From positions 43,655,874 to 43,719,873 of the forward strand of contig NC_054868.1 of NCBI RefSeq assembly GCF_018320785.1: a DNA stretch of 64,000 nt. Direction: 5' to 3'. Shown here piece by piece: positions 10,671-61,681 of this stretch. Below the pieces are notes generated by a model. It made no database searches and was not told the origin of the DNA. It saw nothing but the letters and a program-made list of their open reading frames with translations. Numbering within the stretch: position 1 is the stretch's first letter; every line of letters starts with the position of its first letter. Origin of the DNA: Cheilinus undulatus. Its lineage: Eukaryota > Chordata > Actinopteri > Labriformes > Labridae. The position numbers and the translations under genes were made by a program.

Positions 10671-13034
10671 ATGACACTCCACACCTGTCTCATGTTTTTC
10701 CTGCTGATACATGGAAGCCTCTCTCTCGCCAGACCGCAGTGTTACACATGTGACCAAACAACCTGCAAGTGCTCAAGACAAAACTTTGAAAAAGTCCCTG
10801 TAACCCCTCTAAAGCTCGTCACTGAACTCGACCTGTCATTCAACATGCTGACAACCATAGAGAAGAACAACTTTGATGCACATGCCAGTTTAATATCTTT
10901 GCTCATGAACAACAACCAAATCAACACGATTGAGGAGCAAGCATTTGCAGAACTGACTATTTTAGAGAAACTGGACTTGTCCTTCAACAGACTGGAGATG
11001 TTGTCTCCTGGATGGTTTGAGAAGCTGTTTTCTCTTCAGCATTTGAACCTTTTGGGCAATACATATAAAACACTGGGTCAAGGTGGTCTTTTCCAGCCAC
11101 TGAAGAGATTGAGGATCCTTTATTTTGGAGGACCTGACTTTCTGTATGTCAGAACGGTGGACTTTTCTGGCCTCAGTCATCTTGAAGAAGTTATTATTGA
11201 TGGTGTGAATTTGAAGGGCTATGCAGGAGGAAGTTTAAGTCAAACTGGGCCAATCGAGCGTGTTACACTCAGTCTAGGTCTTCAATTTCGAAAAAATCCA
11301 GTACTTGTCAGAACCATTTTGACAGATGTTGTTCATGCAAACACAACCCTGACATTCAGCAACACCAGGTTTTCCACTGTCCCTGAAATGGTCCTGTTTA
11401 ATGTGGTCACAGACGGTGGAACAAGAAATCTTCATTTTAAGAATGTGAACATGTCAGGTGCAGCTTGTTACGCCCTTGTTTATCGACTGTCAGGCTCCAA
11501 TATAATTAAACTTACTTTGGAAGATGTAAGACTCTCCATGTATTTTATGATTCCATCTTTGGACCTTGACTTTTTGTATTTGGAGGAGGTAGTTCTAAAG
11601 AATGTCATTATCCCACAATTCTACAGGTTCCCAGCCCTGATATTTCTGGCACCTATACTGATGGTTGTTCAAAGGGTGACTGTGGTCAACTCCAAATTGT
11701 ACGCAATACCTTGTCAATCCTCTGTCTCTTTCTCACATTTGGAGTATTTGGACATCAGTGAAAACTATTTAACTGATATGGCTCTTAGTAACTTGATGTG
11801 TGATGGTAAAGGTGTTCTAGGGAGTCTGCAAACCTTCAAAATCGGCTGGAATAGCTTACGGGTGATCAACAGCAGGATCTTCATGGGACTGGAAAAGCTT
11901 GAACATCTTGATATAAGTGGAAATGCATTTCATAGCATGCCTGAGACTTGTTACTGGCCACCCAGTCTTCAGGTTTTGAACCTTTCTTCCTCTCATTTAA
12001 CAAAAGTGACAGCATGTTTGCCACAGAGTTTACGCATTCTCGATCTATCAGACAATGCGTTGACTGTTTTCAGTGTCAAACTGCAGTTTCTTAAAGAGTT
12101 GTACATCTCTGGAAACAAGCTAAGAAGTTTACCAGATGGTGGTTTCTACCCTGGTCTTGTAATGCTTTCCATTCAAAATAACGACCTGCAGACATTTAGC
12201 AGAAATATTCTAAATGCTTACAGCAATCTGACAAGTTTAGAGGCAAGTACCAGCACATACGTTTGTTCATGTGACTTTGTGGTGTTCATGAAGAGTGAAG
12301 TGGTCCATCATCAGGTCTCAATCAAAGATGAGTTCAAGTCGTACATCTGCGACTCCCCTGATGGAGAAAGAGGGAGAAGCGTAGGAGATGTGAGCTTGTC
12401 TGTGTTCGAGTGTCACACAGCCTTGGCTTTTTCTTTACTCTGCTTGTTCATCCTTGGAGTGATTTTGCTCATTGTAGGTTTCTGTAACAAATTCAATGTT
12501 TTGTGGTATCTAAAGATGACCTGGAACTGGCTGAGAGCTAAGAGGAAGCCCAAGTTAAAGAAGGGAGAGCTTGAGTTTGACGCCTTTGTGTCGTACAGCG
12601 AAATGGACTCTGGCTGGGTGGAGGCACACCTGGTCCCTGAGCTGGAGCAGGTGGAGCCTCGTCTCCGGCTCTGCCTTCACAAGAGAGACTTCTTACCTGG
12701 AGGCTGGATCCTGGACAACATCATGGATGCCATAGAGAGGAGTCACAGAACTCTGTTTGTCCTCTCTCAGCATTTTGTCAGGAGTGAGTGGTGCAAGTAC
12801 GAGCTGGATTACACTCATTTCAGAATGTTCAATCATAACGATGACTCGGTTGTACTGATTCTGTTGGAGCCCATTGACAAAGACAGCATCCCCAAAAAGT
12901 TCTGTAAGCTCCGGAAGGTCATGCACTCTAAAACATACCTGGAGTGGCCTGATGACGACACCCAGATCCCCAGATTCTGGCAGAGCTTGAGAAAAGCTAC
13001 TTTGAGACCTGGAATGGACAACAGCAATGTGTAA
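10671..13034 (+). CDS. tlr2: TLR2-type Toll-like receptor, gene 1 of 6
   Basis: A single 787-codon exon encodes a pattern receptor of the TLR1/2 subfamily. In order: signal peptide about 1-20; cysteine-rich LRR cap (CYTCDQTTCKCS); five clear N-terminal LRRs; a central LRR block without the Asn ladder (about 190-395), as known for TLR2; seven clear C-terminal LRRs; LRR C-terminal cap with C532, C534, C560, C581; membrane helix about 583-605; TIR domain about 634-780 with FDAFVSYSE, the BB loop RDFLPGGW (Pro676) and FWQSL. The TIR and 'FHSMPETC' region match human TLR2 best. The start follows an acceptor at 10660-10661. This copy has the most divergent ectodomain; it also has Ile-Lys-Asp at 'VSIKDEF' and His in 'MHSKTY'. 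The 3' UTR lacks about 110 bases with the AATAAA kept in genes 3-5; the next AATAAA, at 13767-13772, lies in an inserted LINE. TLR2 naming rests on motifs and synteny, without a tree. Confidence 0.93.
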   Translation: MTLHTCLMFFLLIHGSLSLARPQCYTCDQTTCKCSRQNFEKVPVTPLKLVTELDLSFNMLTTIEKNNFDAHASLISLLMNNNQINTIEEQAFAELTILEKLDLSFNRLEMLSPGWFEKLFSLQHLNLLGNTYKTLGQGGLFQPLKRLRILYFGGPDFLYVRTVDFSGLSHLEEVIIDGVNLKGYAGGSLSQTGPIERVTLSLGLQFRKNPVLVRTILTDVVHANTTLTFSNTRFSTVPEMVLFNVVTDGGTRNLHFKNVNMSGAACYALVYRLSGSNIIKLTLEDVRLSMYFMIPSLDLDFLYLEEVVLKNVIIPQFYRFPALIFLAPILMVVQRVTVVNSKLYAIPCQSSVSFSHLEYLDISENYLTDMALSNLMCDGKGVLGSLQTFKIGWNSLRVINSRIFMGLEKLEHLDISGNAFHSMPETCYWPPSLQVLNLSSSHLTKVTACLPQSLRILDLSDNALTVFSVKLQFLKELYISGNKLRSLPDGGFYPGLVMLSIQNNDLQTFSRNILNAYSNLTSLEASTSTYVCSCDFVVFMKSEVVHHQVSIKDEFKSYICDSPDGERGRSVGDVSLSVFECHTALAFSLLCLFILGVILLIVGFCNKFNVLWYLKMTWNWLRAKRKPKLKKGELEFDAFVSYSEMDSGWVEAHLVPELEQVEPRLRLCLHKRDFLPGGWILDNIMDAIERSHRTLFVLSQHFVRSEWCKYELDYTHFRMFNHNDDSVVLILLEPIDKDSIPKKFCKLRKVMHSKTYLEWPDDDTQIPRFWQSLRKATLRPGMDNSNV

Positions 13035-13793: not shown

Positions 13794-13799
13794 ATGTCT

Positions 13800-16217: not shown

Positions 16218-16540
16218 GTTTATTAACTTAACGTAATATGACAGATGTACTCAACTGCCGAATAATTTTTAGTGGAGCACACACTAAGACCCATCTTGTT
16301 ACATAACTTCTTTTGTTAACATCACTCACATATCCTTACGCCTTTTACTGCATCAAATAGTACCATTACATTATATTACACTATTATGGTAATATTTAAC
16401 ATTAAGCATTGTATTTTTTGTTAGCAATTAAGTTAAAGAGGATCTCAGATGACAAGGAGTAATGCAAAAGTAATTTAACTAGTAGTGTAACTAGTCACTT
16501 TCTGAAGCTGTTGCATCAAATATGTCTTTGTTTCCTGCAG

Positions 16541-16907
16541 GTTTACTTGGAGTAGTGCCAACAGCCACTGCAACAGTCCATACACCTACTGTGAGAAGAA
16601 CAACTACATCGGTACGATCTAGGGACTGAGGTCTACCCATATTTCCCAGCATTTTTGAAGCCTTCCTGATTCTGATCAATAAAAATTTGATTTAACCCAG
16701 TTAGGAATGGAACTTTACTTATTAGTGTTTTTCTGGGTTAAAGTAAAGCATTTCTGCACTTATCTTGCAGGCACTGGAACTTTTCCGAGCGGTTATCCCA
16801 GTCAGGAGGGTCAGATTGTTCACTGCAGTCAGACCAGCTGGAGTGAGTAACAGCCTCAGGAATCGCCCTCAGCCTGGGACACAGCAGCCTGTGTGGGCAG
16901 CAAGGTG
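16541..16907 (+). pseudogene. tmem131l: tmem131l relic: two internal exons
   Basis: Two exon-like blocks keep splice signals. The first (16541-16611, acceptor tttcctgcag, donor gtacga) reads in one frame as a Trp-Ser-Ser...Tyr-Cys-Glu-Lys-Asn-Asn-Tyr stretch. The second (16771-16907) continues in phase with Gly-Thr-Gly-Thr-Phe-Pro-Ser, ending Thr-Ser-Trp, then meets a TAA unless the donor-like TGGA|gtgagt is the true exon end. The same pair, the first block shortened by about 22 bases, lies at 36701-37040. Assignment to tmem131l is inferred from order: they stand before the copied last intron and last exon. Direct comparison with the intact exons, which are outside the window, would settle it. 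Confidence 0.6.
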
Positions 16908-17002
16908 AGTGTTCACACTAATAAACTATGGGACTGCTCAGACGCCTGTTTAAATCTAACTCATCACTGAACTCATCAAAATCTGGAGACAGACAATTTG
17001 TT

Positions 17003-17186
17003 TGATTTTTAAAGATTCTTGGGGTTTTTATGCCGGTCAGACAGGAGAGCAGTGGATAGAGTTGGAAACAGGGAGGAGAGATTGGGGGAGAAACTTACAA
17101 AAGGGGCCAAAGACCAGACTTGAACCCAGGCCACCCATGTTCATGGGGGTGCAGCCTAACCTCTAGGCCATCAGTGCCCTGGTGAT
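17003..17186 (-). mobile_element. tRNA-derived SINE
   Basis: On the minus strand: an A-box-like block 'tggcctagaggttag', a B box 'gggttcaagtc', then a body 'tctccctgtttccaactc' and an AT-rich tail. An orthologous insertion sits at 37137-37312, so it predates the unit 2 / unit 4 duplication. Confidence 0.8.
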
Positions 17187-18513
17187 GGAAAAAATTTATA
17201 GATTTTTTTGTTTAACCTGAAAAGAACAACGAACATTGTTAAATTTTTGATACATTATAGGCCGAACCAACTAAAACAAACAATTCAGAGTAACAGTAGA
17301 TGGAACTCACTGACCAATCAGGTGAGTTCAGTGTTACACTGTACTGTTTAATACTGTAAACACAATGATGCAAAAAGAATTGAGAGGCAAAGACGAACAA
17401 TTTTGCAGACAATAGTTTTTTTTTTTGTCACTGACTTCAGAGTAAAGAAACTCAAATTTCAAAGATGGACAGAGAGCCGCTTGCTTCTATGAAACCTGCC
17501 TTTGCTACCTCCTCCACTGAGTCCGCTGCATCCCCCTGAACACCTGTGATAACCAGTTTAATGTTTATTTCATTTGAATTTCAGTAACTTCAAAAACACA
17601 TGCACACACATTAAAGACACTGGTAGCTTCTTCACTGAGGCTGGTGTTGCTGTCAAAGGAAGTTATCCACGTTTAAAATGGCATTTTCTGCTGTAAATAT
17701 CAGAGCAGAAGTGAAAGAGTGAGGAGAGTCATTATAAAGTTATTTTTTTTATCATACTTACATTTGGACTTCTGCTTCTTCTTTCTTGCACTGATGGTCT
17801 CATTGATATTCTTTAGTTTTTCCTGTTAAATTCAGGGGAAAGACTCACCCAGCTGGTATCTTTAGACAACAGTGAGATGAGGAATGTCTGTGGCAGACTG
17901 GATTTTAACTCTATGTAAAAACACATTGTATCATCACCTTTGAAACACAAAATTAGACAAGGCAAAAGAAATTTGGCCTTGTGACAGGTCTGTCAGTTAT
18001 TCACAGAAATCTAGAGGTGCCCCTCAAAAAAATGTGCCCGGTAAGGTGCAGATGACATTGAGTAAATGGGCCAATGTCCTTTCTGTTGGTATTGAATGCA
18101 TTTTTTTTTTTTTCTTTAAGTGATATGTAGGAACTGACGGAATTTATTCCAGGGATCGGAGGGATAAGGGGAGACTCAAAGCACCCAAGCTTGAAGCATA
18201 TGGCACGTTACAAGGCGTTTTGATAGATACAGAAAAGAGGATGCAGTTTTGTTTAGGACAAACTTTTCCAAAGTTGATTTTATATAAGCTGAAAGGAAAG
18301 AACTGAAGCGATAGCCAGGTCATCACTTGTCATCTCTGCAGGGAGCAGACAGCCAAGTTGTAACAGAGCACAGCAGGTAAGGTCTGAAAATACCATGGGA
18401 ATATGATGCTAGGATGCAGCTTCTTTATTTAGCTTTAGAAAAGACACAAACAATCTATAATATTTCAGAACCATGTTTGAAATCTCATATCATTTCTTTC
18501 TCATCCTGCACAG

Positions 18514-18592: not shown

Positions 18593-19114
18593 ATTAACCA
18601 GTGAGTGGGTCTTCCAGACACAGGTGTCTTTATACTACAATCACTTCAGTCACATTCACTGACTAAGTTGATCCCCATTTCACTAACTGTGAGATTACTA
18701 GCACCAATTGGCTTGACCTCAGTCAGTCACTTTAAATGGAATAAATATTCATGCAATCACTTATTTTACCTTACATATTTTTATTTAATTTACATTACTC
18801 TGTAGAAATCTGTTTTCATTTTTAAATCAAAGAGTTTTTTTCTGTTGTCAAATAAGCCAAATTAAATTGACCATGATCGATTTACACAATTATATAAAAC
18901 TTCCTAAGGGGGGGTGGCATGTGGCCTAGTGGTTAGAGGCACGCCTGGGTTCAAATCCGGTCAGAGGCCCTCTACTTCATGTCTCTCCCTCGGTCTCGTC
19001 CCTGTTTCCGACTCTATCCACTGTCTTCATCTATCAAATAAAGGCACAAAAATGCCCAAAAATAAATCTTAAAAAACAAATCCAAGGGGATGTATACGTG
19101 TTAAAGGCACTGTA
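18593..19114. mobile_element. Tc1 remnant before gene 2 (same insertion as 3692-5136)
   Basis: Sequence such as 'acacaggtgtctttat' and the right end ggtatacgtgttaaaggcactg followed by TA and 'ttttgctgattca' match the Tc1 copy before gene 1. The transposase middle is deleted. A SINE sits inside. Confidence 0.75.
18908..19077 (+). mobile_element. tRNA-derived SINE inside the Tc1 remnant
   Basis: It shows 'gtggcctagtggttag' (A-box region), 'gggttcaaatccgg' (B box), the 'gtttccgactctatcc' body and the 'aataaaggcacaaaaatg' tail. The matching place before gene 4 (about 40455) is empty. Confidence 0.82.
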
Positions 19115-19360
19115 TTTTGCTGATTCAGACCTTTTATTCCCATCATAGGGACTAAAATAGAAAAGGTGTTACTCTGTTCATGGTACATGCTAAAGAGATT
19201 TCCTGACTTTGGGTCCATCTGCACCCTACAGAACTGGATGAAACAAATAAAAAAAAAAAAATTATAATTGCGCAACTGTTGTTTCGGGTAATCCCAGAGC
19301 TCCTCTTCTTGTTTTTATTTTTAACAGTCAGCTTCTTAATGCTTAATAAGCAAGTAATTT

Positions 19361-19475
19361 AAATGGCAGAGACGGTTCCTAAATATATATGCATCACTTC
19401 ATCAATCTTTGTCGTGCTACAACTGCTACAGACGGACACACAAGAGTTTACTTTGAAGACACAGGATTCAATAAG
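19361..19475 (+). other. tlr2: non-coding 5' exon of TLR2 gene 2 (start approximate)
   Basis: It has the conserved block ending attcaataag at 19475 and donor gtatat at 19476. The donor lacks the G at +5 seen in the others (gtatg), so splicing here could be slightly weaker. The paired acceptor is at 22625-22626; the intron is 3151 bases. Confidence 0.7.
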
Positions 19476-20247
19476 GTATATTTTTTTAGTGTTTATTTTT
19501 CATTGTAATTTAGTCCCTTCTCATACTTAATGTAGCGCAGAGCTGGCTGCTGGTGGACTTATAGGCTGATTATTTCAACCTTGATTTTAATGGTAAATTA
19601 TGCTTACATGCTGCATTGATATAATACCTCAGGTGTTCAACGTAACTGACATTTTGAAAACGGAAAATTATTTAGAGGTTTGTAGACATTTTTTGCTCAA
19701 GACTACATATGTGTGTCCCATTTTCATGTATTAATCATCAGTATCAGCATATAGGAGCATTTCTGCTGCTATTTTCAACCAATGCATTTGCTGTAAACAA
19801 CCGTTGTGTGTATGAATAAGTTTGTTGAGTTTTAATCTGGACCTACAGACTTACATCAGATTTTTTAGCAGTTTAAGGTCTGAACTATATTTATATTTAA
19901 GTATTTGCTGTGCTTGTTTTATAAATGTCTACACAGTTTATGTTGACACAGATACGATATCATGCAGCCCTAATCTTAAACTTTTGTATAGCAACGTGTG
20001 GTTTTACAAATGTACACACTAAGAATTTCCTCAAGCCACACCAGAGTGCTACAGCACACCAAATACAACAACTGAGATGAATAGATGGGTGGATGGATGA
20101 TGATGATTTTTTGGGGGGAAAAAGTCAACTGTGCTCTGTTTGTCTAAATTGTATATTTTCTTTCTGTCTGGTAACCCTATAGATTCCAGCTGAGACTGAA
20201 GCTCCCACCTCCATTCAGTTGCTATTTATACTAACCAGGCTCACCCT

Positions 20248-21417
20248 CAGAGGTGTCAAAAGTATTCACATTCATTACTCAGGTAGAAGTATAGATACTA
20301 GGGTTTAAAAAGACTTTGGTAGAAGTTGAAGTATCAACTCAAGCTTTTTACCCAAGTAAATGTATAAAAGTAGTTTCAAAACTACTTAAAGTATAAAAGT
20401 AAAAGCAATATAAGGGGGAAAAAATGCCATTAAGGACAAAAGCTTAGGCTGCACCACAGGGGCCAATTCTATTCTACAATTCCATTCTACCATTCGATTC
20501 CATTTTACTTTCCATTCCATTCTATTCTACCATTCCATTTCATTATACTTTCCATTCTATTGTACCATTCTATTCCATTATACTTTCCATTCCATTCTAC
20601 CGTTCCATTCTATTATACTTTCCATTGCATTCTACCATTCCATTCCATTGCATTCCATTCTACCATAGTGCACTACCCCACCTCCCCAAAAAGCATTATG
20701 ACTATAATGTTAAATCAAAATGTTAAAGTTGAAAAATTTGGGATGCACCTGTTTCAGCCACATTTATGCCCATTGAAAATTAACACATTTTAGTACAATG
20801 CAAATACATTGAAGGACCATATATGTGTACTACTGAGCATTAACATGTGTTTTATGGAGCAGAAGATATGATGACTAGTTGCCTATAAGTACTGGTCTTC
20901 ATGGCTACCAACGTCCTCGATGGTGCTTGGTTGGGACATTTCACTCGAGTCCTCTTGAGTCTCTTCCACAGACATCTTCGTACTAAGTTACATATGTCTG
21001 CCATTTCCTTGCTGGAGTGTGACGGGATTTGTGTCATGTGAGCAGGTGCGATGGATCCCAATAGGGTGTCAGAATGGTATTGTGTTTATACTTGTCATCC
21101 AACCACAATGAAATTTACTCTATCCAGATGGCGCGATTTATCTGGATAGGTTTTAGGGATTTTATTTGTGTTTTGGTTTTTTGGGGGTTTTTTTTCTTTT
21201 ACAATGACAAGCCAGAATGAAAACAAGCTGAAATAAAATAGGAGCAATGAGGCTATTTTTAAAATGTCAGGTAGCAAGTACAGATAATTGCATGAAAATG
21301 TTAGGAGTAGAAGTAAAAAGTCGGCTGAAAAATAATTACTCCAGTAAGTATAGATACCCAAAATTTCTACTTAAGTAAGGTAACTAAGTATTTGTACTTC
21401 ATTACTTGACACCTCTG
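20248..21417. mobile_element. hAT-type non-autonomous element, 1170 bp
   Basis: The exact target duplication CTCACCCT is at 20240-20247 and 21418-21425. Ends are CAGAGGTGTCAAAAGTATTC and the complement, ending TTGACACCTCTG, with long 'agtaagtatagata' style sub-terminal repeats. The matching sites in the introns of gene 1 (about 6353) and gene 4 (41562-41569) hold the target once, without insertion. Confidence 0.92.
20464..20665. repeat. minisatellite, unit about ttccattctac
   Basis: Repeats of 'ccattccattctacc' and 'ttatactttccattcc' lie inside the hAT element. The 77-codon frame at 20560 comes only from this repeat. Confidence 0.85.
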
Positions 21418-22635: not shown

Positions 22636-24999
22636 ATGACACTCCACACCTGTCTCGTGTTTTTCCTGCTGATACATGGAAGCCTCTGTCTCTCCAGACC
22701 GCAGTGTTACACATGTGACCAAACATCCTGCAAGTGCTCAAAACAAAACCTTGAAAAAGTCCCTGTAACCCCTCTAAAGCTCGTCACTGAACTCGACCTG
22801 TCATTCAACATGCTGACAACCATAGGGAAGAACGACTTTAGTGCACATGCCAGTTTAATATCTTTGCTCATGAACAACAACCAAATCAACACGATTGAGG
22901 AGCAAGCATTTGCAGAACTGACTAATTTAGAGAAACTGGACTTGTCCTTCAACAGACTGGAGACATTGTCTCCTGGATGGTTTGAGAAGCTGTATTCTCT
23001 TCAGCATTTGAACCTTTTGGGCAATAAATATAAAACACTGGGTCAAGGTGGTCTTTTCCAGCCACTGAAGAGATTGAGGATCCTTTATTTTGGAGGACCT
23101 GACTTTCTTTATGTCAGAAATGTGGACTTTTCTGGCCTCAGTCATCTTGAAGAAGTTATCATTGATGGTGTGAATCTGAAAGGCTACGCAGGAGGAAGTT
23201 TAAAACAAACTGGGCCAATCGAGCGTGTTACACTCAGTCCAGGTGATCTTTTTCAGATGAATCCAGAGCTTGTAAGAAACATTTTAACTGACGTTGTTCA
23301 TGCAAACACAACCCTGACATTCAGCAACACCCAGTTCTTCAGATCAGATCAAATGTTCCCGTTTGATGTGGTCGCAGACGGTGGAACAAGAAGACTTATT
23401 TTTAAAAACATAAACATGACGACTGCAGCTTGTTTGGCCATTATTAATCGACTGTCAGGCTCCAGTATAACTAAAATTTCTTTTGAAGATCTAGGACTCT
23501 TCTTGACTCATGGGCAGATCATGAATGACCTCAAATTTGACCACTTGGAGGAGGCTGTTTTCAAAAATGTTGATGTCCCTGATTATTGGAATTTCCCAGT
23601 CCTAACATTCTTGGCACCTGTGCTGATGGTCGTTCGCAGGCTGTCAGTGGTCAACTCCAAATTGTTTGTTATACCTTGTATATCTTCGGTCCTTTTCTCA
23701 CATCTGGAGTATTTGGACCTCAGTGAAAATTATATACCTGATCTGGCTCTTAGCAAAATGTTGTGTGATGGAAGGGGTGCTTTAATAAATCTGCGAACCT
23801 TCAAAATCAGCTGGAATAGCTTGCGGGTGATCAACAGCAGGATCTTTACCAGACTGAAAAAGCTTGAGCATCTCGATATGAGTGGAAATGCATTTCATAG
23901 CATGCCTGAGACTTGTTACTGGCCACCCAGTCTTCAGGTTTTGAACCTTTCTTCCTCTCTTTTAACAAAAGTGACAGCATGTTTGCCACAGAGTTTACGC
24001 ATTCTCGATCTATCAGACAATGCTTTGATTATTTTCAACATCAGTCTGCCATTTCTTAAAGAGTTGTACATCTCTGGAAACAAGCTAAGAAGTTTACCAG
24101 ATGGTGGTTTCTACCCTGGTCTCGCAATGCTCTCCATTCAAAATAACGACATGCAGACATTTAGCAGAAATATTCTAAATGCTTACAGCAATCTGACAAG
24201 TTTAGAGGCAAGTACCAACACATACATTTGTTCATGTGACTTTGTGGCGTTCATGAAGAGTGAAGTGGTCCATCATCAGGTCTCAATCAGAGATGAGTTC
24301 AAGTCGTACATCTGCGACTCCCCTGATGGAGAAAGAGGGAGAAGCGTAGGAGATGTGAGCTTGTCTGTGTTCGAGTGTCACACAGCCTTGGCTTTTTCTT
24401 TACTCTGCTTGTTCATCCTTGGAGTGATTTTGCTCATTGTAGGTTTGTGTCATAAATTCAATGTTTTGTGGTATCTAAAGATGACCTGGACCTGGCTGAG
24501 AGCTAAGAGGAAGCCCAAGTTAAAGAAGGGAGAGCTTGAGTTTGACGCCTTTGTGTCGTACAGCGAAATGGACTCTGGCTGGGTGGAGGCACACCTGGTC
24601 CCTGAGCTGGAGCAGGTGGAGCCTCGTCTCCGGCTCTGCCTTCACAAGAGAGACTTCTTACCTGGAGGCTGGATTGTGGACAACATCATGGACGCCATAG
24701 AGAGGAGTCACAGAACTCTGTTTGTCCTCTCACAGCATTTTGTCAGGAGCGAGTGGTGCAAGTACGAGCTGGATTACACTCATTTCAGAATGTTCAATCA
24801 TAATGATGACTCGGTTGTGCTGATTCTGTTAGAGCCCATTGACAAAGACAGCATCCCCAAAAAGTTCTGTAAGCTCCGGAAAGTCATGAACTCTAAAACA
24901 TACCTGGAGTGGCCTGATGACGACACCCAGATCCCCAGATTCTGGCAGAGCTTGAGAAAAGCTACTTTGAGACCTGGAATGGACAACAGCAATGTGTAA
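22636..24999 (+). CDS. tlr2: TLR2-type Toll-like receptor, gene 2 of 6
   Basis: An intact 787-codon exon with the full receptor layout described for gene 1: signal peptide about 1-20, LRRs, cysteine cap, membrane helix about 583-605 and TIR from about 634, with BB-loop Pro676 kept. The start is fixed by the acceptor ttttctag ending at 22626 and a nine-base leader. Copy-specific points: Leu-Leu in 'SSSLLTKV' and Asn in 'ASTNTYICSC', both shared only with gene 6; Val in 'GGWIVDN', again shared with gene 6. The central LRR block reads PDYWNFPVLTFLAPVL, almost the same as gene 6. The 3' UTR has AATACA in place of the AATAAA of genes 3-5, but an ATTAAA follows at 25192-25197. It is a type A unit. 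Confidence 0.93.
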   Translation: MTLHTCLVFFLLIHGSLCLSRPQCYTCDQTSCKCSKQNLEKVPVTPLKLVTELDLSFNMLTTIGKNDFSAHASLISLLMNNNQINTIEEQAFAELTNLEKLDLSFNRLETLSPGWFEKLYSLQHLNLLGNKYKTLGQGGLFQPLKRLRILYFGGPDFLYVRNVDFSGLSHLEEVIIDGVNLKGYAGGSLKQTGPIERVTLSPGDLFQMNPELVRNILTDVVHANTTLTFSNTQFFRSDQMFPFDVVADGGTRRLIFKNINMTTAACLAIINRLSGSSITKISFEDLGLFLTHGQIMNDLKFDHLEEAVFKNVDVPDYWNFPVLTFLAPVLMVVRRLSVVNSKLFVIPCISSVLFSHLEYLDLSENYIPDLALSKMLCDGRGALINLRTFKISWNSLRVINSRIFTRLKKLEHLDMSGNAFHSMPETCYWPPSLQVLNLSSSLLTKVTACLPQSLRILDLSDNALIIFNISLPFLKELYISGNKLRSLPDGGFYPGLAMLSIQNNDMQTFSRNILNAYSNLTSLEASTNTYICSCDFVAFMKSEVVHHQVSIRDEFKSYICDSPDGERGRSVGDVSLSVFECHTALAFSLLCLFILGVILLIVGLCHKFNVLWYLKMTWTWLRAKRKPKLKKGELEFDAFVSYSEMDSGWVEAHLVPELEQVEPRLRLCLHKRDFLPGGWIVDNIMDAIERSHRTLFVLSQHFVRSEWCKYELDYTHFRMFNHNDDSVVLILLEPIDKDSIPKKFCKLRKVMNSKTYLEWPDDDTQIPRFWQSLRKATLRPGMDNSNV

Positions 25000-27111: not shown

Positions 27112-27394
27112 TACTTGAAAATTACTCAGAAAGGACTGACTTTAATTTAGTGTTTCTAAGAAATTGATTGATAATATACCACTACAATTGAGCCCATATT
27201 GACATGTGAATATATTGTGGATTCAAACCTACATTTTTCATCATAAGGACTAAAATTGAACAGGTTTTACTATTTTGATAGTACAGGTGAAAACAACTTC
27301 CTGATTTTGGTTCTATTCGATTTACAGATCTTCTTCATTACAGAACTTTTTTTTTTATTATTCGCATTGAACTCTCTAAACAAGAAGTAATTCA

Positions 27395-27503
27395 AATAAA
27401 TGGGAAGTTTCCAGAATATATTTGAATCAATACACCTTGTTTCATGCAGTGGCTGCTACAGACAGACACAGGAGTTTACCTTGAAGACACAGGATTCAAT
27501 CAG
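27395..27503 (+). other. tlr2: non-coding 5' exon of TLR2 gene 3 (start approximate)
   Basis: It is the type B form of the leader exon, ending 'aggattcaatcag' at 27503 (the others end in aataag), with donor gtatgt. The partner acceptor is at 30563-30564; the intron is 3061 bases. No Tc1 insertion lies upstream, unlike genes 1, 2 and 4. Confidence 0.68.
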
Positions 27504-40494: not shown

Positions 40495-40729
40495 TACAGT
40501 TTGCTGATTCAAACTTTTTATTCCCATCATAGAGACTAAAATAGAAAAGGTCTGTTGATGGTAAATGCTAAAGTAATTTCCTGACTTTGGTTCCATCTGC
40601 ATCCTACAGAACTGGATGAAACTAAAAAAATCAATTAAAATTGTGCAACTATTGTTTAGGGTAGTCCCAGAGCTCCTCTTCTTGTTTTTATTTTTAACAG
40701 TCAATTTCTTAATGCTTAATAAGGAAGTA

Positions 40730-40844
40730 ATTGAAAGGAAGAGATGTGTCCAGATTATATTTGAATCACTCATAGATCTTTGTCATGCTGCAACTGCTAC
40801 AGACGGACACACGAGTTTACCTTTAAGACACAGGATTCAATAAG
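40730..40844 (+). other. tlr2: non-coding 5' exon of TLR2 gene 4 (start approximate)
   Basis: Block 'gacacaggattcaataag' ends at 40844, donor gtatgt. The paired acceptor is at 43118-43119; the intron is 2275 bases, of which 542 are a later insertion. Upstream, aaggaagtaatt at about 40721-40732 has an ETS-like core; only some copies keep it. Confidence 0.7.
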
Positions 40845-47109: not shown

Positions 47110-47631
47110 TTTAATTTAATCATCAAAACTTGAATCACAAAAAAGCTAAGTTGTCTGACTGCTTGAACAATAGAAAAGCAGTTACTTTTATAATGCTAGC
47201 AATGTCAACTTTATGAAACTCAAAATCTAGAAACAGGTTTTGAGCCTTTAAACACCTGTCCACAGAAACACTGCCGACATCTGATCTAGTCAATTTATTC
47301 TTTCTTCCTCTGCCCATGTAGTTAAACTCCAATAACAATCCCACATTGAAATTTGAATCAGTCAAAATTAAAGCACAAATGTATTGCTCATTCAAACCTA
47401 CATTTCTCAGCATGGGAACTTAAAATAGAAACTCAGTTGTTCTGCTGATAGTACAAGTGAAAAAAAACTTCCTGATTTTGGTTCCATTTGCATTCACAGA
47501 ACTGAACTAAACTGAAAAAAAAAAAAATCACAGATCTACTGTTCCAGGTACTACAAAAGCTCCTCTTCTCATTTTTATTTCTAGCAATCTACTTCTGAAT
47601 GCTCATTAATCCCTCAACAAAGGAAGTAATT
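47110..47631 (+). promoter_or_regulatory. type B upstream region of gene 5
   Basis: Near-identical sequence lies before gene 6 (53700-54210), and a related one before gene 3. It holds 'cttcctgattttggttcc' and 'aaggaagtaattc', both with ETS-like cores (GGAA/TTCC); PU.1 and other ETS factors are known regulators of mammalian TLR2. The promoter role is inferred from position. Confidence 0.5.
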
Positions 47632-47745
47632 CAAATGGCCGGGAAGTTTCCAGAATTTATTTGAATAACCTCATACATCTTATACCGTGTTGTGGCTGCT
47701 ACAGAGGACACAAGAGTTTACCTGGAAGACACAGGATTCAATAAG
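47632..47745 (+). other. tlr2: non-coding 5' exon of TLR2 gene 5 (start approximate)
   Basis: Ends 'aggattcaataag' at 47745 with donor gtattt, which lacks the G at +5. The acceptor is at 49368-49369; at 1624 bases this is the shortest intron of the six. Confidence 0.68.
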
Positions 47746-47819
47746 GTATTTTTTTCAAGTATTTATTTTTTTTTATTGTAATATAGTTCTTTTCCTGCCT
47801 TAATGTTGTGCATAGATAG

Positions 47820-48260
47820 CTGATAGACAGATGGATACATACATACATTCATACATACATTACATATATACGTACATACATACACAGACAGACAGATAGA
47901 TTGATAGATGTGATATTATCGTGATACTTGGGTCACAATTCGATTTTATTGTGATTTTAAACATTATGCAATACAGTGAGAATTGCAATACTATATATTG
48001 CGATCTTTACCATTTTTTTCAACTGTTTAGCTGATTTAGCATTAATCTAGCCCTCATGTTTGTTGTATTTCCACAGTATTTTATTTTCATGTAGCACTTC
48101 TTGCAGACCTCATGTGTCATGTCCATCTCATTTGTGATCTGCTTGCATTCCTAGTGTCCTTCCCCTGGTGCTGGCATGTTTGCTGTACTAACTTTCTCCT
48201 GCTCTATGACTGTCACCTCTAACAACCTCACTGGACAAACAATTGTACAAACAAGTGATT
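47820..48260. repeat. tetranucleotide repeats and a hAT-like remnant
   Basis: Repeats of 'cata' and 'gaca' (about 47830-47905) run into 'gatattatcgtgatacttgggtcac', a start known from fish non-autonomous hAT elements. The same combination is at 54410-54960 in gene 6, where more of the remnant is left. It was there before genes 5 and 6 split. Confidence 0.55.
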
Positions 48261-49378: not shown

Positions 49379-51736
49379 ATGACACTCCACACCTGTCTCA
49401 TGTTTTTCCTGCTGACGCATGGAAGCCTCTCTCTCTCCAGACCGCAGTGTTACACATGTGACCAAACATCCTGCAAGTGCTCAAGACAAAACCTTGAAAA
49501 AGTCCCTGTAACCCCTCTAAAGCTCGTCACTGAACTCGACCTGTCATTCAACATGCTGACAACCATAGGGAAGAACGACTTTGATGCACATGCCAGTTTA
49601 ATATCTTTGCTCATGAACAACAACCAAATCAACACGATTGAGGAGCAAGCATTTGCAGAGCTGACTAATTTAGAGAAACTGGACTTGTCCTTCAACAGAC
49701 TGGAGACGTTGTCTGCTGGATGGTTTGAGAAGCTGTTTTCTCTTCAGCATTTGAACCTTTTGGGCAATACATATAAAACACTGGGTCAAGGTGGTCTTTT
49801 CCAGCCACTGAAGAGATTGAGGATCCTTTATTTTGGAGGACCAAACTTTTTTCATATTAGAACAGAGGACTTTTCTGGTCTCAGTCATCTTGAAGAAATT
49901 ATTATTGATGGTATGAATCTGAAAGGCTACGCAGGAGGAAGTTTAAGTCAAACTAGGCCAATCGAGCGTGTTACACTCAGTCTAGATGGTCCATTTCAGA
50001 TGAATCCAAAGCTTGTAAGAAACATTTTAACTGATGTTGTTCATGCAAACACAACCCTGACATTCAGCAACACCAGGTTCAGCGATTCCAATCAAATATT
50101 CCCGTTTGATGTGGTCGCAGACGGTGGAACAAGAAGTCTTATTTTTAAGAATGGGAATATGACAGCTGAAGCTTTTTTGGTTCTTATTAATCAACTGTCA
50201 GGCTCCAATATAACTACAGTTTCTTTTCAAGATCTAAAATTCTTCTTGACTCATGGGCAGATCAAGGATGACCTCAAATTTGACCACTTGGAGGAGGTTG
50301 TTTTTAAAAGTGTTGATGTCCCTGATTTCTGGAAATTCCCGGTTCTAACATTCCTGGCATCTGTGCTGAGGGTGATTCGCAGGTTGTCAGTCGTCAACTC
50401 CAAATTGTATTTTATACCTTGTATAACTTCGGTCTTTTTCACACATCTGGAGTATTTGGACTTCAGTGAAAACTTTTTAACTGATCGGACTCTTAGTGAA
50501 TTTATGTGTAAAGGTGTTCTACGGAGTCTGCAAACCATCAATATCAGTTGGAATCGCATGCTGGTGATCAACAGCAGGATCTTCACCAGATTGGACAAGC
50601 TTGAACGTCTCGATATGAGTGGAAATGGATTTCATAATATGCCTGAGACTTGTTACTGGCCACCCAGTCTTCAGGTTTTGAACCTTTCTTCCTCTCATTT
50701 AACAAAAGTGACAGCATGTTTGCCACAGAGTTTACACATTCTTGATCTATCAGACAATGCTTTAATTATTTTCAACATCAGTCTGTCGTTTCTTAAAGAG
50801 TTGTACATCTCTGGAAACAAGCTAAGAAGTTTACCAGATGGTGGTTTCTACCCTGGTCTCGCAATGCTCTCCATTCAAAATAACGACCTGCAGAAATTTA
50901 GCAGAAATATTCTAAATGCTTTCAGCAATCTGACAAGTTTAAAGGCAAGTACCAGCACATACATTTGTTCATGTGACTTTGTGGTGTTCATGAAGAGTGA
51001 AGTGGTCCATCATCAGGTCTCATTAAGAGATGAGTTCAGGTCTTACATATGCGACTCCCCTGATGGAGAAAGAGGGAGAAGCGTAGGAGATGTGAGCTTG
51101 TCTGTGTTCGAGTGTCACACAGCCTTGGCTTTTTCTTTACTCTGCTTGTTCATCCTTGGAGTGATTTTGCTCATTGTAGGTTTGTGTCACAAATTCAATG
51201 TTTTGTGGTATCTAAAGATGACCTGGACCTGGCTGAGAGCTAAGAGGAAGCCCAAGTTAAAGAAGGGAGAGCTTGAGTTTGACGCCTTTGTGTCATACAG
51301 CGAAATGGACTCTAGCTGGGTGGAGGCACACCTGGTCCCTGAGCTGGAGCAGGTGGAGCCTCGTCTCCGGCTCTGCCTTCACAAGAGAGACTTCTTACCT
51401 GGAGGCTGGATCCTGGACAACATCATGGACGCCATAGAGAGGAGTCACAGAACTCTGTTTGTCCTCTCTCAGCATTTTGTCAGGAGCGAGTGGTGCAAGT
51501 ACGAGCTGGATTACACTCATTTCAGAATGTTCGATCATAATGATGACTCGGTTGTGCTGATTCTGTTGGAGCCCATTGACAAAGACAGCATCCCCAAAAA
51601 GTTCTGTAAGCTCCGGAAAGTCATGAACTCTAAAACATACCTGGAGTGGCCTGATGACGACACCCAGATCCCCAGATTCTGGCAGAGCTTGAGAAAAGCT
51701 ACTCTGAGACCTGAAATGGGAAACAGCAATGTGTAA
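49379..51736 (+). CDS. tlr2: TLR2-type Toll-like receptor, gene 5 of 6 (785 residues)
   Basis: An intact exon, two codons shorter than its sisters: the Asp-Gly of 'MCDGKG' (residues 378-379 in the others) is missing by a clean six-base deletion in the central LRR region. Signal peptide, LRRs, cysteine cap, membrane helix, TIR and the BB-loop proline are all present. It is nearest to gene 6 up to about residue 300; 'SEFMC' is shared with gene 3, as are the TIR changes DSSW, FDHNDD and RPEM. Private changes include WNRMLVI, FSENF and FFHIRTED. The start is fixed by the acceptor ctttcctag ending at 49369. AATAAA at 51922-51927. Type B unit. Confidence 0.93.
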   Translation: MTLHTCLMFFLLTHGSLSLSRPQCYTCDQTSCKCSRQNLEKVPVTPLKLVTELDLSFNMLTTIGKNDFDAHASLISLLMNNNQINTIEEQAFAELTNLEKLDLSFNRLETLSAGWFEKLFSLQHLNLLGNTYKTLGQGGLFQPLKRLRILYFGGPNFFHIRTEDFSGLSHLEEIIIDGMNLKGYAGGSLSQTRPIERVTLSLDGPFQMNPKLVRNILTDVVHANTTLTFSNTRFSDSNQIFPFDVVADGGTRSLIFKNGNMTAEAFLVLINQLSGSNITTVSFQDLKFFLTHGQIKDDLKFDHLEEVVFKSVDVPDFWKFPVLTFLASVLRVIRRLSVVNSKLYFIPCITSVFFTHLEYLDFSENFLTDRTLSEFMCKGVLRSLQTINISWNRMLVINSRIFTRLDKLERLDMSGNGFHNMPETCYWPPSLQVLNLSSSHLTKVTACLPQSLHILDLSDNALIIFNISLSFLKELYISGNKLRSLPDGGFYPGLAMLSIQNNDLQKFSRNILNAFSNLTSLKASTSTYICSCDFVVFMKSEVVHHQVSLRDEFRSYICDSPDGERGRSVGDVSLSVFECHTALAFSLLCLFILGVILLIVGLCHKFNVLWYLKMTWTWLRAKRKPKLKKGELEFDAFVSYSEMDSSWVEAHLVPELEQVEPRLRLCLHKRDFLPGGWILDNIMDAIERSHRTLFVLSQHFVRSEWCKYELDYTHFRMFDHNDDSVVLILLEPIDKDSIPKKFCKLRKVMNSKTYLEWPDDDTQIPRFWQSLRKATLRPEMGNSNV

Positions 51737-52949: not shown

Positions 52950-54212
52950 CTGAATGAAAGTTTAAACAAAGAGATTACTTAACAACCTAAGGCAAAAACA
53001 ACACTCTGTTTGTCTTTGCCATTTTCGAGTTTTTGGGGTGTAGAGATCACCATAAAATCATATATAAAGACATCTTAGTTTACACTTTTTTTACATACAC
53101 CATGAAATGATCAGGAGTAATAGCTAGGAGCTAAACAGAAAACTCTTGCTGTTTTGTTCAAATTTGATAAAATAAATAAAACTATCCATGTTTGTCTCCT
53201 CAAGCAAAATATCATGCATGTATTTCTCAATGAGTGCATTTTTTGCACAATTTTATTGTGAATAGCAGAACTGACACAAACACATGCACACATATTAGAC
53301 ACTAGTGACTTCTCCACTGAGACTCATGTTGCTTTAACAGCAAATTATGCACTATTTAAATTTTATTGATCTGCTTTAAATTTCCGAGCAGAAGTGAAAG
53401 AGTGTGTGGAGCCATAAAATGTTATTTTTTATTATATTTGGATTTCTCCTTTTTTGCACAGACAGTTTCATTTATATGTTTAGTTTTTCCTTTAACATTC
53501 AGGCCACACTGCATTGGTATCTTTAGACAATAATGAGATGAGGAATATCCATGGTAGATTGACTTTTAACTCTGTGCAAAAACTTACTGTATCATCACCT
53601 TTGAAACACAACATTTTATTTCTTCTTTTCCTGACCATCTCAGTGAACAGTCTCTTTTCTCTACTTTTTATTAGGGAACAAAAATCTTATAATTTAATCA
53701 TCAAAACTTGAATCACAAAAAAGCTAAGTTGTCTGACTGCTTGAACAATAGAAGAGCAGTTACTTTTATAATACTAGCAATGTCAACTTTATAAAACTCA
53801 AAATCTAAAAACAGGTTTTGAGTCTTTAAACACCTGTCTACAGAAACACTGCCGACATCTGATCTAGTCAATTTATTCTTTCTTCCTCTGCTCATGTAGT
53901 TAAACTCCAATAACAATCCCACATTGAAATTTGAATCTGTCAGAATCAAAGCACAAATATATTGTTCATTCAAACCTACATTTCTTAGCATAGGAACTTT
54001 AAAATAGCAACTCAGTTCTTCTGCTGATAGAACAGGTGAAAAAAACTTCCTGATTTTGGTTCCATTTGCATTCACAAAACTGAACTAAACTGAAGAACAA
54101 ACAAAATAATCACAGATCTACTGTTCCAGGTACTACCAAAGCTCCTCTTCTCATTTTTATTTCTAGCAATCTACTTCTGAATGCTCATTAATCCCTCAAC
54201 AAAGGAAGTAAT
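52950..54212 (+). promoter_or_regulatory. type B upstream region of gene 6, with tmem131l intron remnant
   Basis: Bases 53490-53620 are a diverged copy of the tmem131l last intron (compare 1-150); no tmem131l exon is left. The part from 53700 on matches 47110-47631 before gene 5, including ETS-like cores in 'acttcctgattttgg' and 'aaggaagtaattc'. Confidence 0.5.
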
Positions 54213-54334
54213 TCAAATGGCCGGGAAGTTTACAGTATATATATATATATGAACAACCTCGTACGTCTTTTGCCGTGTTGTGGCTGCTACAGACGGACAC
54301 AAGAGTTTACCTAGAAGACACAGGATTCAATAAG
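54213..54334 (+). other. tlr2: non-coding 5' exon of TLR2 gene 6 (start approximate)
   Basis: Ends 'aggattcaataag' at 54334 with donor gtatgt. A short (TA)n expansion at about 54236-54250 sits inside or just before the exon and is absent from gene 5. The acceptor is at 59307-59308; the intron is 4974 bases, swollen by insertions. Confidence 0.68.
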
Positions 54335-54408
54335 GTATGTTTTTCAAATCTTTATTTTTTTATTGTAATATAGTTCTTTTCTTGTCTTATTGCTGTGCAT
54401 AGATAGCT

Positions 54409-54409
<1 letters not shown>

Positions 54410-54460
<51 letters not shown>
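54410..54460. repeat. (GATA)n microsatellite
   Basis: About twelve pure GATA/TAGA units, in the intron of gene 6. Gene 5 has a mixed tetranucleotide tract at the same place. Confidence 0.95.
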
Positions 54461-59317: not shown

Positions 59318-61681
59318 ATGACACTCCACACCTGTCTCATGTTTTTCCTGCTGATGCATGGAAGCCTCTCTCTCTCCAGACCGCAGTGTTACACATGTGA
59401 CCAAACATCCTGCAAGTGCTCAAAACAAAACCTTGAAAAAGTCCCTGTAACCCCTCTAAAGCTCATCACTGAACTCGACCTGTCATTCAACATGCTGACA
59501 ACCATAGGGAAGAACGACTTTGATGCACATGCCAGTTTAATATCTTTGCTCATGAACAACAACCAAATCAACACAATCCAGGAGCAAGCATTTGCAGAAC
59601 TGACTAATTTAGAGAAACTGGACTTGTCCTTCAACAGACTGGAGACGTTGTCTGCTGGATGGTTTGAGAAGCTGTATTCTCTTCAGCATTTGAACCTTTT
59701 GGGCAATACATATAAAACACTGGGTCAAGGTGGTCTTTTCCAGCCACTGAAGAGATTGAGGATCCTTTATTTTGGAGGACCCAACTTTCTAGATGTGAGA
59801 ACGGTGGACTTTTCTGGCCTCAGTCATCTTGAAGAAATTATCATTGATGGTGTGAATCTAAAAGGCTACGCAGGAGGAAGTTTAAGTCAAACTGGGCCAA
59901 TCGAGCGTGTTACACTCAGTCTAGATGGTCCATTTCAGATGAATGCAAAGCTTGTAAGAAACATTTTAACTGATGTTGTTCATGCAAACACAACCCTGAC
60001 ATTCAGCAACACCAGGTTCAGCGATTCCAATCAAATGTTCCCGTTTGATGTGGTCGCAGACGGTGGAACAAGAAGTCTTATTTTTAAGAATGGGAATATG
60101 ACAGCTGAAGCTTTTTTGGTCCTTATTAATCAACTGTCAGGCTCCAATATAACTACAATTTCTTTTGAAGATCTGAAATTCTTCTTGACTCATGGGCAGA
60201 TCAAGGATGACCTTAAATTCGACCACTTGGAGGAGGTTGTTCTCAAAAATGTTGATGTCCCTGATTATTGGAATTTCCCAGTCCTAACATTCTTGGCACC
60301 TGTGCTGATGGTCATTCGCAGGCTAACAGTGGTCAACTGCCAATTGTTTGCCATACCTTGTATATCTTCAGTCCTTTTCTCACATCTGGAGTATTTGGAC
60401 CTCAGTGAAAATTATATACCTGATCTGGCTCTTAGCAAATTATTATGTGATGGAAAGGGAGTTTTACGGAATCTGCGAACCTTCAATATCAGCAGGAATA
60501 GCTTGCGAGTGATCAACAGCAGGATCTTCACAAGATTGGATAAGCTTGAGCATCTCGATATGAGTGGAAATGCGTTTCACAGCATGCCTGAGACTTGTTA
60601 CTGGCCACCCAGTCTTCAGGTTTTGAACCTTTCTTCCTCTCTTTTAACAAAAGTGACAGCATGTTTGCCACAGAGTTTACGCATTCTCGATCTATCAGAC
60701 AATGCTTTGATTATTTTCAACATCAGTCTGTCGTTTCTTAAAGAGTTGTACATCTCTGGAAACAAGCTAAGAAGTTTACCAGATGGTGGTTTCTACCCTG
60801 GTCTTGCAATGCTCTCCATTCAAAATAACGACCTGCAGACATTTAGTAGAAATATTCTAAATGCTTACAGCAATCTGACGAGTTTAAAGGCTAGTACCAA
60901 CACATACATTTGTTCATGTGACTTTGTGGCGTTCATGAAGAGTGAAGTGGTCCATCATCAGGTCTCAGTCAGAGATGAGTTCAAGTTGTACATCTGTGAC
61001 TCCCCTGATGGAGAAAGAGGGACAAGCGTAGGAGATGTGAGCTTGTCTGTGTTCGAGTGTCACACAGCCTTGGCTTTTTCTTTACTCTGCTTGTTCATCC
61101 TTGGAGTGATTTTGCTCATTGTAGGTTTGTGTCATAAATTCAATGTTTTGTGGTATCTAAAGATGACCTGGACCTGGCTGAGAGCTAAGAGGAAGCCCAA
61201 GTTAAAGAAGGGAGAGCTTGAGTTTGACGCCTTTGTGTCGTACAGCGAAATGGACTCTGGCTGGGTGGAGGCACACCTGGTCCCTGAGCTGGAGCAGGTG
61301 GAGCCTCGTCTCCAACTCTGCCTTCACAAGAGAGACTTCTTACCCGGAGGCTGGATTGTGGACAACATCATGGACGCCATAGAGAGGAGTCACAGAACTC
61401 TGTTTGTCCTCTCTCAGCATTTTGTCAGGAGCGAGTGGTGCAAGTACGAGCTGGATTACACTCATTTCAGACTATTTAATCATAACGATGACTCGGTTGT
61501 GCTGATTCTGTTAGAGCCCATTGACAAAGACAGCATCCCCAAAAAGTTCTGTAAGCTCCGGAAAGTCATGAACTCTAAAACATACCTGGAGTGGCCTGAT
61601 GACAACACCCAGATCCCCAGATTCTGGCAGAGTTTGAGAAAAGCTACTCTGAGACCTGGAATGGACAACAGCAATGTGTAA
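59318..61681 (+). CDS. tlr2: TLR2-type Toll-like receptor, gene 6 of 6
   Basis: An intact 787-codon exon with signal peptide, LRRs, cysteine cap, membrane helix, TIR and BB-loop Pro676. It is a mosaic: to about residue 300 it follows gene 5 (SLDGPFQMN, THGQIKDDLKF), from there to about 380 gene 2 (PDYWNFPVLTFLAPVL, SENYIPDLALSK), then gene 4 (RTFNISRN); SSSLLTKV, STNTYIC and GGWIVDN again match gene 2. Private TIR changes are Gln in 'LQLCL' and Leu in 'FRLFNH'; in the cap Thr replaces Arg in 'ERGTSV'. Homology to the sister 3' UTRs stops about 15 bases after the stop, so transcript ends must differ; the first AATAAA is at 62447-62452. The start is fixed by the acceptor tttcctag ending at 59308. 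Type B unit. Confidence 0.93.
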   Translation: MTLHTCLMFFLLMHGSLSLSRPQCYTCDQTSCKCSKQNLEKVPVTPLKLITELDLSFNMLTTIGKNDFDAHASLISLLMNNNQINTIQEQAFAELTNLEKLDLSFNRLETLSAGWFEKLYSLQHLNLLGNTYKTLGQGGLFQPLKRLRILYFGGPNFLDVRTVDFSGLSHLEEIIIDGVNLKGYAGGSLSQTGPIERVTLSLDGPFQMNAKLVRNILTDVVHANTTLTFSNTRFSDSNQMFPFDVVADGGTRSLIFKNGNMTAEAFLVLINQLSGSNITTISFEDLKFFLTHGQIKDDLKFDHLEEVVLKNVDVPDYWNFPVLTFLAPVLMVIRRLTVVNCQLFAIPCISSVLFSHLEYLDLSENYIPDLALSKLLCDGKGVLRNLRTFNISRNSLRVINSRIFTRLDKLEHLDMSGNAFHSMPETCYWPPSLQVLNLSSSLLTKVTACLPQSLRILDLSDNALIIFNISLSFLKELYISGNKLRSLPDGGFYPGLAMLSIQNNDLQTFSRNILNAYSNLTSLKASTNTYICSCDFVAFMKSEVVHHQVSVRDEFKLYICDSPDGERGTSVGDVSLSVFECHTALAFSLLCLFILGVILLIVGLCHKFNVLWYLKMTWTWLRAKRKPKLKKGELEFDAFVSYSEMDSGWVEAHLVPELEQVEPRLQLCLHKRDFLPGGWIVDNIMDAIERSHRTLFVLSQHFVRSEWCKYELDYTHFRLFNHNDDSVVLILLEPIDKDSIPKKFCKLRKVMNSKTYLEWPDDNTQIPRFWQSLRKATLRPGMDNSNV

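Follow-up and report, generated by a model that had tools for sequence, protein, structure and literature searches.

Six tandem TLR2 genes of Cheilinus undulatus with uniform ends and a divergent, mosaic central block

TLR2 is a sensor of bacterial lipoproteins, and most vertebrates have one or two genes for it. In the genome of the humphead wrasse Cheilinus undulatus, a coral-reef fish (1.17 Gb, 46 contigs), six TLR2 genes stand in one row within the stretch of 64,000 nt analysed here (the window; G000:C4:43655874-43719873, contig NC_054868.1). What has kept these six copies nearly alike over most of their length, and why do they differ so strongly in one central part? We consider it probable that the array consists of tandem TLR2 duplicates whose ends have been made uniform by gene conversion and whose block over the presumed lipid pocket has stayed divergent and mosaic. 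Such an array would most likely provide one signalling output with several lipid-recognition surfaces.

Six intact TLR2 genes in one array

The copies, numbered T1-T6 in window order, lie on the + strand and were delimited by open reading frames (ORFs) and Pfam matches: T1 (10671-13034, a full coding exon), T2 (22636-24999), T3 (30574-32937), T4 (43129-45492), T5 (49379-51736) and T6 (59318-61681). Each encodes 787 amino acids (aa), except T5 (785 aa), whose two missing residues fall inside the variable block. Every ORF runs from an ATG to one terminal stop; ATG-to-ATG spacings are 11965, 7938, 12555, 6250 and 9939 bp, and pairwise protein identity is 83.4-92.4%. An earlier note on this DNA had described six intact 785-787-aa exons, head-to-tail on one strand and free of premature stops and frameshifts, and the ORFs bear this out. 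These open frames are the one indication that all six copies may have retained function. A tblastn search with all six proteins (E-value 1e-3) found no further TLR2-like fragment in the window. In a genome search with T6, in which 57 of 360 first-look candidates were scored, no seventh close copy was found and full-length matches above 33% identity came from the window genes only.

Leucine-rich repeat (LRR) domain LRR_8 and the TIR domain exceed the Pfam cut-offs in all six copies. T1, the sole copy searched against solved structures, matched TLR2 ectodomains best (E 6e-93 to 1e-79), and its TIR domain matched TLR2 TIR at 4e-63 versus ∼1e-42 for TLR6/TLR1 TIR. A quick tree of 63 rows places all six with fish and tetrapod TLR2, apart from five TLR1 rows, with support of 100 in the Shimodaira-Hasegawa-like approximate likelihood ratio test (SH-aLRT). 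There T1-T6 cluster as a clade of their own (SH-aLRT 100), close to Labrus, Tautogolabrus and Notolabrus; in a 17-row set the clade is recovered by the pocket block alone (100/98) and by either end alone (100/100). Since T1-T6 are a single clade for the block and for either end, an expansion later than the split from these three genera is supported among the genera sampled. The lineage-specific expansion proposed in the earlier note thus stands, with closer relatives (other Cheilini and parrotfishes) outside the sample. The tree it had suggested, with TLR1, TLR2, TLR18, TLR25 and TLR28, was realised in part: T1-T6 fall inside TLR2 as against TLR1, and TLR18, TLR25 and TLR28 are absent from the trees. 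TLR28 is highly homologous to TLR2, according to the available part of one article (PMC6043800).

A divergent block between uniform ends

Having recognized the TLR2 identity, the expansion and the open frames, the earlier note overlooked that uniform ends surround a divergent mosaic block. In codons 193-408 of the alignment, 125 of 216 columns vary among T1-T6, compared with 25 of 168 in the N-terminal part, 28 of 179 in the C-terminal LRRs and 14 of 200 in the transmembrane segment and TIR domain (TM+TIR). By the codon alignment this block occupies, on the + strand, 11247-11894 in T1, 23212-23859 in T2, 31150-31797 in T3, 43705-44352 in T4, 49955-50596 in T5 and 59894-60541 in T6. Silent sites make the same step: the synonymous distance dS is 0.245 in codons 193-408 versus 0.057 (N part), 0.078 (C-terminal LRRs) and 0.067 (TM+TIR), and four-fold sites are variable at 14 of 40 positions inside codons 201-420 versus 16 of 192 outside (P = 4.8e-5). 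Across the 15 pairs of copies, dS is 0.029-0.085 in the ends and 0.17-0.37 in the block (codons 201-420). Free fitting yields a central block in each of the 15 pairs, with a start at aa 202-203 in seven, an end at 390-397 in nine and both in five. The ratio of block to other-ectodomain divergence is 5.5 in the six copies and 1.6-1.8 in seven of eight comparison sets, the eighth (Simochromis-Oreochromis) reaching 4.4.

As a rough neutral clock we used a spacer element, identified by sequence comparison and not assigned a strand, at 4900-6500 before T1, with counterparts for T2-T6 at 19000-20300, 27300-27600, 40290-41700, 47380-47830 and 53950-54410. Its Kimura two-parameter distance (K2P) is 0.18-0.48 in 14 of 15 pairs and 0.069 in T5-T6; comparisons with the T3 element cover 274-295 sites only. 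By this clock, 14 pairs have ends that postdate their duplication and a block about as old as the duplication itself.

The ends look homogenized by gene conversion. TLR2 was duplicated in tandem at the tmem131l locus of C. undulatus, and we propose that gene conversion or short unequal exchange has kept the LRRs at either end, TM and TIR alike. Thanks to such uniform ends, all products would share their partners and adaptors. Codons ∼193-408, the central block around the lipid pocket and the TLR1-contact region, would retain deep differences, and pieces of LRR size would have passed among the copies. Selection would keep the block different, and the copies, presumably expressed, would differ in the ligands they bind.

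Mosaic histories within the block

Inside the block the nearest copy, determined in 72-base windows, switches every one or few LRRs. The closest pairs along it are T2-T3 in codons 193-240 (one base difference), T5-T6 in 217-264, T2-T6 in 313-336 and T1-T3 in 361-384. A GENECONV-like test found T2 and T6 identical at 42 of 42 polymorphic sites in codons 309-332 (global p = 0.001), along with two more significant runs, T4-T5 (global p 0.010) and T5-T6 (0.0195). Codons 313-336 of T6 appear as if imported: they have two base differences from T2 and 11 from the near sister T5.

The histories of segments conflict as well. The coding sequence was divided into codons 1-168, 169-288, 289-336, 337-408 and 409-787, with edges picked after the pattern had been seen, and each segment was set against the trees of the other four in approximately unbiased (AU) tests. 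Rejection was obtained in 15 of 20 tests; segments 169-288, 337-408 and 409-787 mutually reject one another's trees.

The block lies over the presumed lipid pocket

The hydrophobic lipid pocket of TLR2 is located in LRR9-12 (PMC8181103), and lipopolyamines have been docked into the TLR2 lipopeptide site with their contact residues (PMC5312493), both as given in the available parts of the articles. From the latter we compiled 38 contact residues in LRR9-13, 36 of which align here and two of which are gapped; window residues 261 and 371 equal 261 and 376 in the numbering of a primate TLR2 record. Contact residues vary more often than their neighbours in T residues 250-380 (30 of 36 versus 57 of 95, P = 0.013), and the remaining ectodomain residues vary at 53 of 347 positions. 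Of 30 hydrophobic contact residues, 22 are hydrophobic in all six copies, seven have lost this property in at least one copy and one is gapped. This pattern fits a lipid pocket of changed shape, without proving one.

The ratio of nonsynonymous to synonymous distance (dN/dS) is 0.79 in the whole block and 0.21 in TM+TIR, the latter value indicating purifying selection. Codons 241-300, a region picked after the profile had been seen, have a dN/dS of 1.84, with dN≤dS in 1.1% of bootstraps; the signal of positive selection in the block is weak.

Recurrence in other fishes

Is the pattern confined to this array? Our survey covered 205 TLR2 proteins with a length of 740 aa or more, T1-T6 among them, and gave 18,655 pairs with enough aligned sites. 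At ends distances >0.15, medians of the block-to-ends ratio are 1.3-1.5. At ends distances <0.15, with the T rows and 31 pairs from unnamed sources excluded, a ratio of at least 3 was reached by 10 of 20 same-species pairs; between species the count was 8 of 104, or 5 of 82 once mammals are left out. Of the ten same-species pairs below that ratio, seven resemble alleles, strains or repeated records, with block distances ≤0.023, and three have ratios of 2.8, 2.8 and 1.6. The ten hits are from Alosa (one), Leuresthes (one), Odontesthes (one), Halichoeres (one), Cheilinus (three) and Oryzias latipes (three); one Cheilinus hit repeats T1-T4 and two are genes of a second locus on contig C22. Above an ends distance of 0.15, O. 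melastigma has a ratio of 3.0 and Cyprinodon 1.5.

Fitted blocks fall at aa 201-397 in Leuresthes, 202-385 in Odontesthes, 203-383 and 203-401 in the Cheilinus C22 genes, 183-385 in O. melastigma and 249-397 in Alosa. Narrower blocks were fitted in Halichoeres (233-346), Oreochromis (293-338) and the wrasse TLR1 genes (309-351), and a wider one in O. latipes (186-468). Twice the gain in log-likelihood (2dlnL) is 19-30 for four orthologue pairs and 44-240 for other duplicate pairs; the fit is weak in Cyprinodon (29), and the Pholidichthys pair does not fit a central block (19-65, 2dlnL 15). Silversides, medakas and the wrasse C22 genes may share duplications, with fewer independent cases than pairs.

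Comparisons of the block across species use deposited protein models, not DNA. Between the two Alosa genes, 4 of 537 end sites and 70 of 193 block sites are different, and the block of one gene is close to that of Sardina (32 of 197 sites differing); pairing of the Alosa genes is recovered in the ends (98/96) and rejected in the block (p 1.5e-4). In silversides the block tree joins Leuresthes b with Odontesthes a (99/97) and Leuresthes a with Odontesthes b (100/98), same-species pairing being rejected (p 2.4e-5, 1.6e-8). The C-terminal tree pairs Leuresthes a and b (100/99) and, weakly, Odontesthes a and b (78/77); the silverside N part groups as the block does, unlike the C part. Medaka types pair between species in the block, and P0124 and P0127 do so in the C part too. 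All five Oryzias rows unite in a single C-part clade (100/99) but split into two groups in the block, and the two O. latipes rows pair with each other in the N part (94/92, not starred). Silverside and medaka members occur on both sides of one bipartition (100/99) of the block tree, which was midpoint-rooted, so pocket types may predate the silverside-medaka split. Some pocket types are apparently older than the species that carry them in clupeids, silversides and medakas.

A wider reading is possible, and we hold it tentatively: tandem TLR2 genes of ray-finned fishes would be recurrent germline cassettes. Within a lineage, conversion would make much of the solenoid ends and the signalling domain alike, the pocket cassette (∼aa 200-395) would persist in several types, some apparently predating the silverside-medaka split, and in the wrasse LRR-sized pieces would be reshuffled. 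If so, they would provide combinatorial recognition surfaces without somatic rearrangement.

The same collection holds two further observations. O. latipes P0106, P0121 and P0122 differ from P0123 at 25-26 of ∼167 N-terminal sites and at 2-3 of 219 block sites, a reversed pattern compatible with an allele whose N part has undergone conversion. Cichlid models P0088-P0090, P0093-P0100 and P0102-P0104 have the ectodomain in common with full TLR2 and lack most of the TIR domain, and are possibly a TIR-less tandem copy or isoforms.

Other TLR loci and deposited gene models

The array at tmem131l, which the earlier note took as the ancestral locus, is real and is one of two in this fish. The second, on C22 (33809211-33919066, L013-L024, minus strand), has at least five TIR-bearing multi-exon genes, with last exons at 33.809, 33.839, 33.870, 33.886 and 33.914 Mb. 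A surplus group of first exons lies at 33.849-33.856 Mb, and two adjacent stretches (L022-L023) together contain 10,000 N. Teleost TLR2 falls into two clades in the tree, SE (window genes) and ME (C22 genes); exon structure was seen in the C. undulatus genome only, and for other species these are clade names. For marbled rockfish, the available part of PMC9569901 reports a pair of TLR2 genes on separate chromosomes, with products of 821 and 798 aa.

TLR2 responds to lipopeptides together with TLR1 or TLR6. A tandem pair of TLR1 genes, the presumed TLR2 partner, lies on C10 (L007:1459-4026, L008:1459-3849). Its differences are concentrated at aa 309-351 in window numbering; one member is deposited as 'toll-like receptor 6' and relatives as TLR1. 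In the T6 search, runs of open frames matching the TIR/C-terminal part were seen at C9:14309505-14363766 and C16:1213202-1635641, possibly other TLR or IL1R-like arrays.

Deposited protein records match T1 and T4 (T4 without the first seven residues), and both retain the block. Models P0003 (T5, 49989-50231) and P0004 (T3, 31175-31426) omit 81 and 84 block residues. Lateolabrax, Pagrus and Centropristis models omit 81 residues at the same place, and those of Epinephelus lanceolatus and Gymnodraco are joined alike. The T3 and T5 junctions can be read as GT-AG, and the T5 donor scores −4.2 versus a median of −4.9 for all 3559 GT dinucleotides of the window. An intron within the exon seems the less likely reading, given the weak T5 donor, the T1 and T4 records that keep the block, and edges that do not match the introns of the multi-exon genes. 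We lean towards an annotation artefact.

Flanking genes, leader region and spacers

Position beside tmem131l was confirmed by domain matches upstream on the + strand. TMEM131_like_N has its sole genome match at C4:43632697-43633026 (+), upstream of the array; a TMEM131L immunoglobulin-like domain in upstream stretch L009 (E 8.5e-6) scores 26.1 bits, slightly below the cut-off of 28. The probable last coding exon of tmem131l (417-761, +) is assigned by position and strand, without a domain match of its own. We take TMEM131L to adjoin TLR2 in human also. Downstream, beyond the window, lie a frame with a TEADIR3 motif, which we assume to be PERCC1-like, and thioredoxin-domain exons of a protein-disulfide-isomerase-like gene.

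The earlier note gave each copy a leader exon. A pyrimidine-rich stretch with an AG splice acceptor 9 bases 5′ of the ATG is present in six of six copies (10541-10661, +, for T1), and no upstream exon was located. Because the acceptor precedes all six ATGs, a non-coding first exon upstream of each coding exon is likely. Two 174-bp upstream elements were tried as candidates and rejected: they are mutually dissimilar, and neither is present before all six genes.

Similarity of T6 to the other copies ends ∼16 bp past its stop codon. A 1.9-kb stretch common to the T1-T2 and T3-T4 spacers (16502-18354 and 36662-38490) is 92.9% identical; its similarity exceeds that of the neighbouring spacer element, which suggests that a larger unit was copied in some later duplication or exchange. 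A Tc3-type transposase domain (HTH_Tnp_Tc3_2) is found at 3895-4449, between tmem131l and T1, and related self-repeating tracts at 1871-2509, upstream of T1, and at 38909-39621, in the T3-T4 spacer.

Weighing the explanations

Several results weigh against converted ends around a selectively maintained block. The GENECONV-like test on the 71 silent sites alone gives a best global p of 0.40. No rejection was obtained in five of the 20 cross-segment AU tests: segment 289-336 against the 337-408 tree, 409-787 against the 289-336 tree, and 1-168 against those of 169-288, 289-336 and 409-787. In the pocket window set beforehand (codons 261-371) dN/dS is 0.85, with a dN-dS interval (−0.147 to 0.041) that spans zero, and codons 241-300 are the only stretch with dN/dS >1. 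Codon site models (M1a/M2a, M7/M8) are positive in the block and more strongly so in the ends control; because of this they report recombination only, and we did not use them. Single-copy orthologues, too, evolve fastest in the block. As to the late expansion, conversion could itself help to create a T1-T6 clade. The spacer clock is uneven, which lowers our confidence: identity reaches 92.9% over 1876 columns and 93.4% over 516 in other stretches shared by the T1-T2 and T3-T4 spacers, and 88-89% in two long spacer stretches elsewhere. Measured by these stretches, the end dS of T1-T3 and T2-T4 (0.059, 0.050) is not clearly below neutral, and the excess age lies in the block (0.27, 0.24). For T5-T6 the end dS of 0.085 is near or above the spacer element (0.069), with 0.21 in the block.

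How far do these points favour another origin? The central LRRs might simply tolerate change, drift and become poor templates, so that conversion is limited to the ends with no selection for diversity. The block and pocket dN/dS values (0.79, 0.85) and the 1.6-1.8-fold faster block in seven of eight orthologue sets agree with such a passive leftover, but the block is still accessible to exchange (T2-T6 codons 309-332, T2-T3 codons 193-240), contact residues are more variable than their neighbours (P = 0.013) and block types are kept across species in silversides, medakas and clupeids; we regard it as unlikely. Plain tandem duplication under ordinary constraint, with faster amino-acid change in the block and no conversion, would account for the TM+TIR dN/dS of 0.21, the block as fastest part, the spacer stretches as similar as the ends and the non-significant silent-only test. 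It is already disfavoured by the 3-4-fold rise at silent sites in the block, and the segment trees conflict in 15 of 20 tests and T6 codons 313-336 are nearer T2 (two differences) than T5 (11), which leaves it very improbable. An assembly artefact, in which haplotypes or collapsed repeats are written as additional copies, might be thought of given the 10,000 N in the C22 cluster. The window itself has zero N bases, and assembly duplication is unlikely because the spacer element varies from K2P 0.069 (T5-T6) to 0.48 among copies, 7-48% being well beyond haplotypes; with six distinct intact proteins, two of them (T1, T4) also deposited records, we give this origin hardly any credence.

Conversion of the ends around a maintained block therefore remains our preferred reading. 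Six copies alike except in the presumed lipid pocket would be a natural panel for residues of lipopeptide specificity. Recurrence in other fishes, with pocket types shared across species under more uniform ends, would, if true, mean that recognition variants of innate receptors can persist for long times. It also cautions that fish TLR2 may conceal old paralogy when studied by whole-gene trees or copy counts.

Relation to known systems

In the literature searched, which left out most subscription journals, no description of a TLR2 array in wrasses or of gene conversion in fish TLR2 was found. A cleaner-wrasse genome paper counts wrasse TLRs, and 'TLR2' is absent from the available part of its text (PMC10463495); 'TLR' is absent from the text of a parrotfish genome paper (PMC10932694).

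Within fishes, the multi-exon TLR2 genes ('type-1/type-2'; medaka, fugu, grouper) form the sister clade, are arrayed on C22 and have a similar central block. They differ from the window genes in their many introns (C22), their chromosome and their 41-45% identity to T6 (four proteins). Atlantic cod has partly tandem expansions of TLR8, TLR9, TLR22 and TLR25, comparable to the wrasse expansion, with diversifying sites in ectodomain loops; in contrast, cod lacks TLR2, and the available part of the report describes no pocket block bounded by conversion (PMC4850435).

Closer in form are mammalian TLR1/TLR6 and avian TLR1A/B, in which converted C-terminal LRRs, TM and TIR accompany a divergent ligand-binding part, as in the wrasse, although the conversion is one-sided and the gene a different one (PMC3125219, available part). 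The closest counterpart is avian TLR2A/TLR2B. According to the available part of Huang et al. 2011 (PMC3125219), conversion there covers the N-terminus to LRR8 and LRR15 to TIR around a divergent centre, with positively selected sites in LRR9 and LRR10. Birds and wrasse thus share a duplicated TLR2 with uniform ends and a divergent centre of about LRR8-LRR14. They differ in copy number (two versus six), in the LRR-scale mosaic of the centre, a wrasse feature, and in positive selection there, reported for birds and not established for the wrasse. Judged by its sequence pattern, the wrasse array would be a larger, mosaic case of the published bird TLR2A/B pattern.

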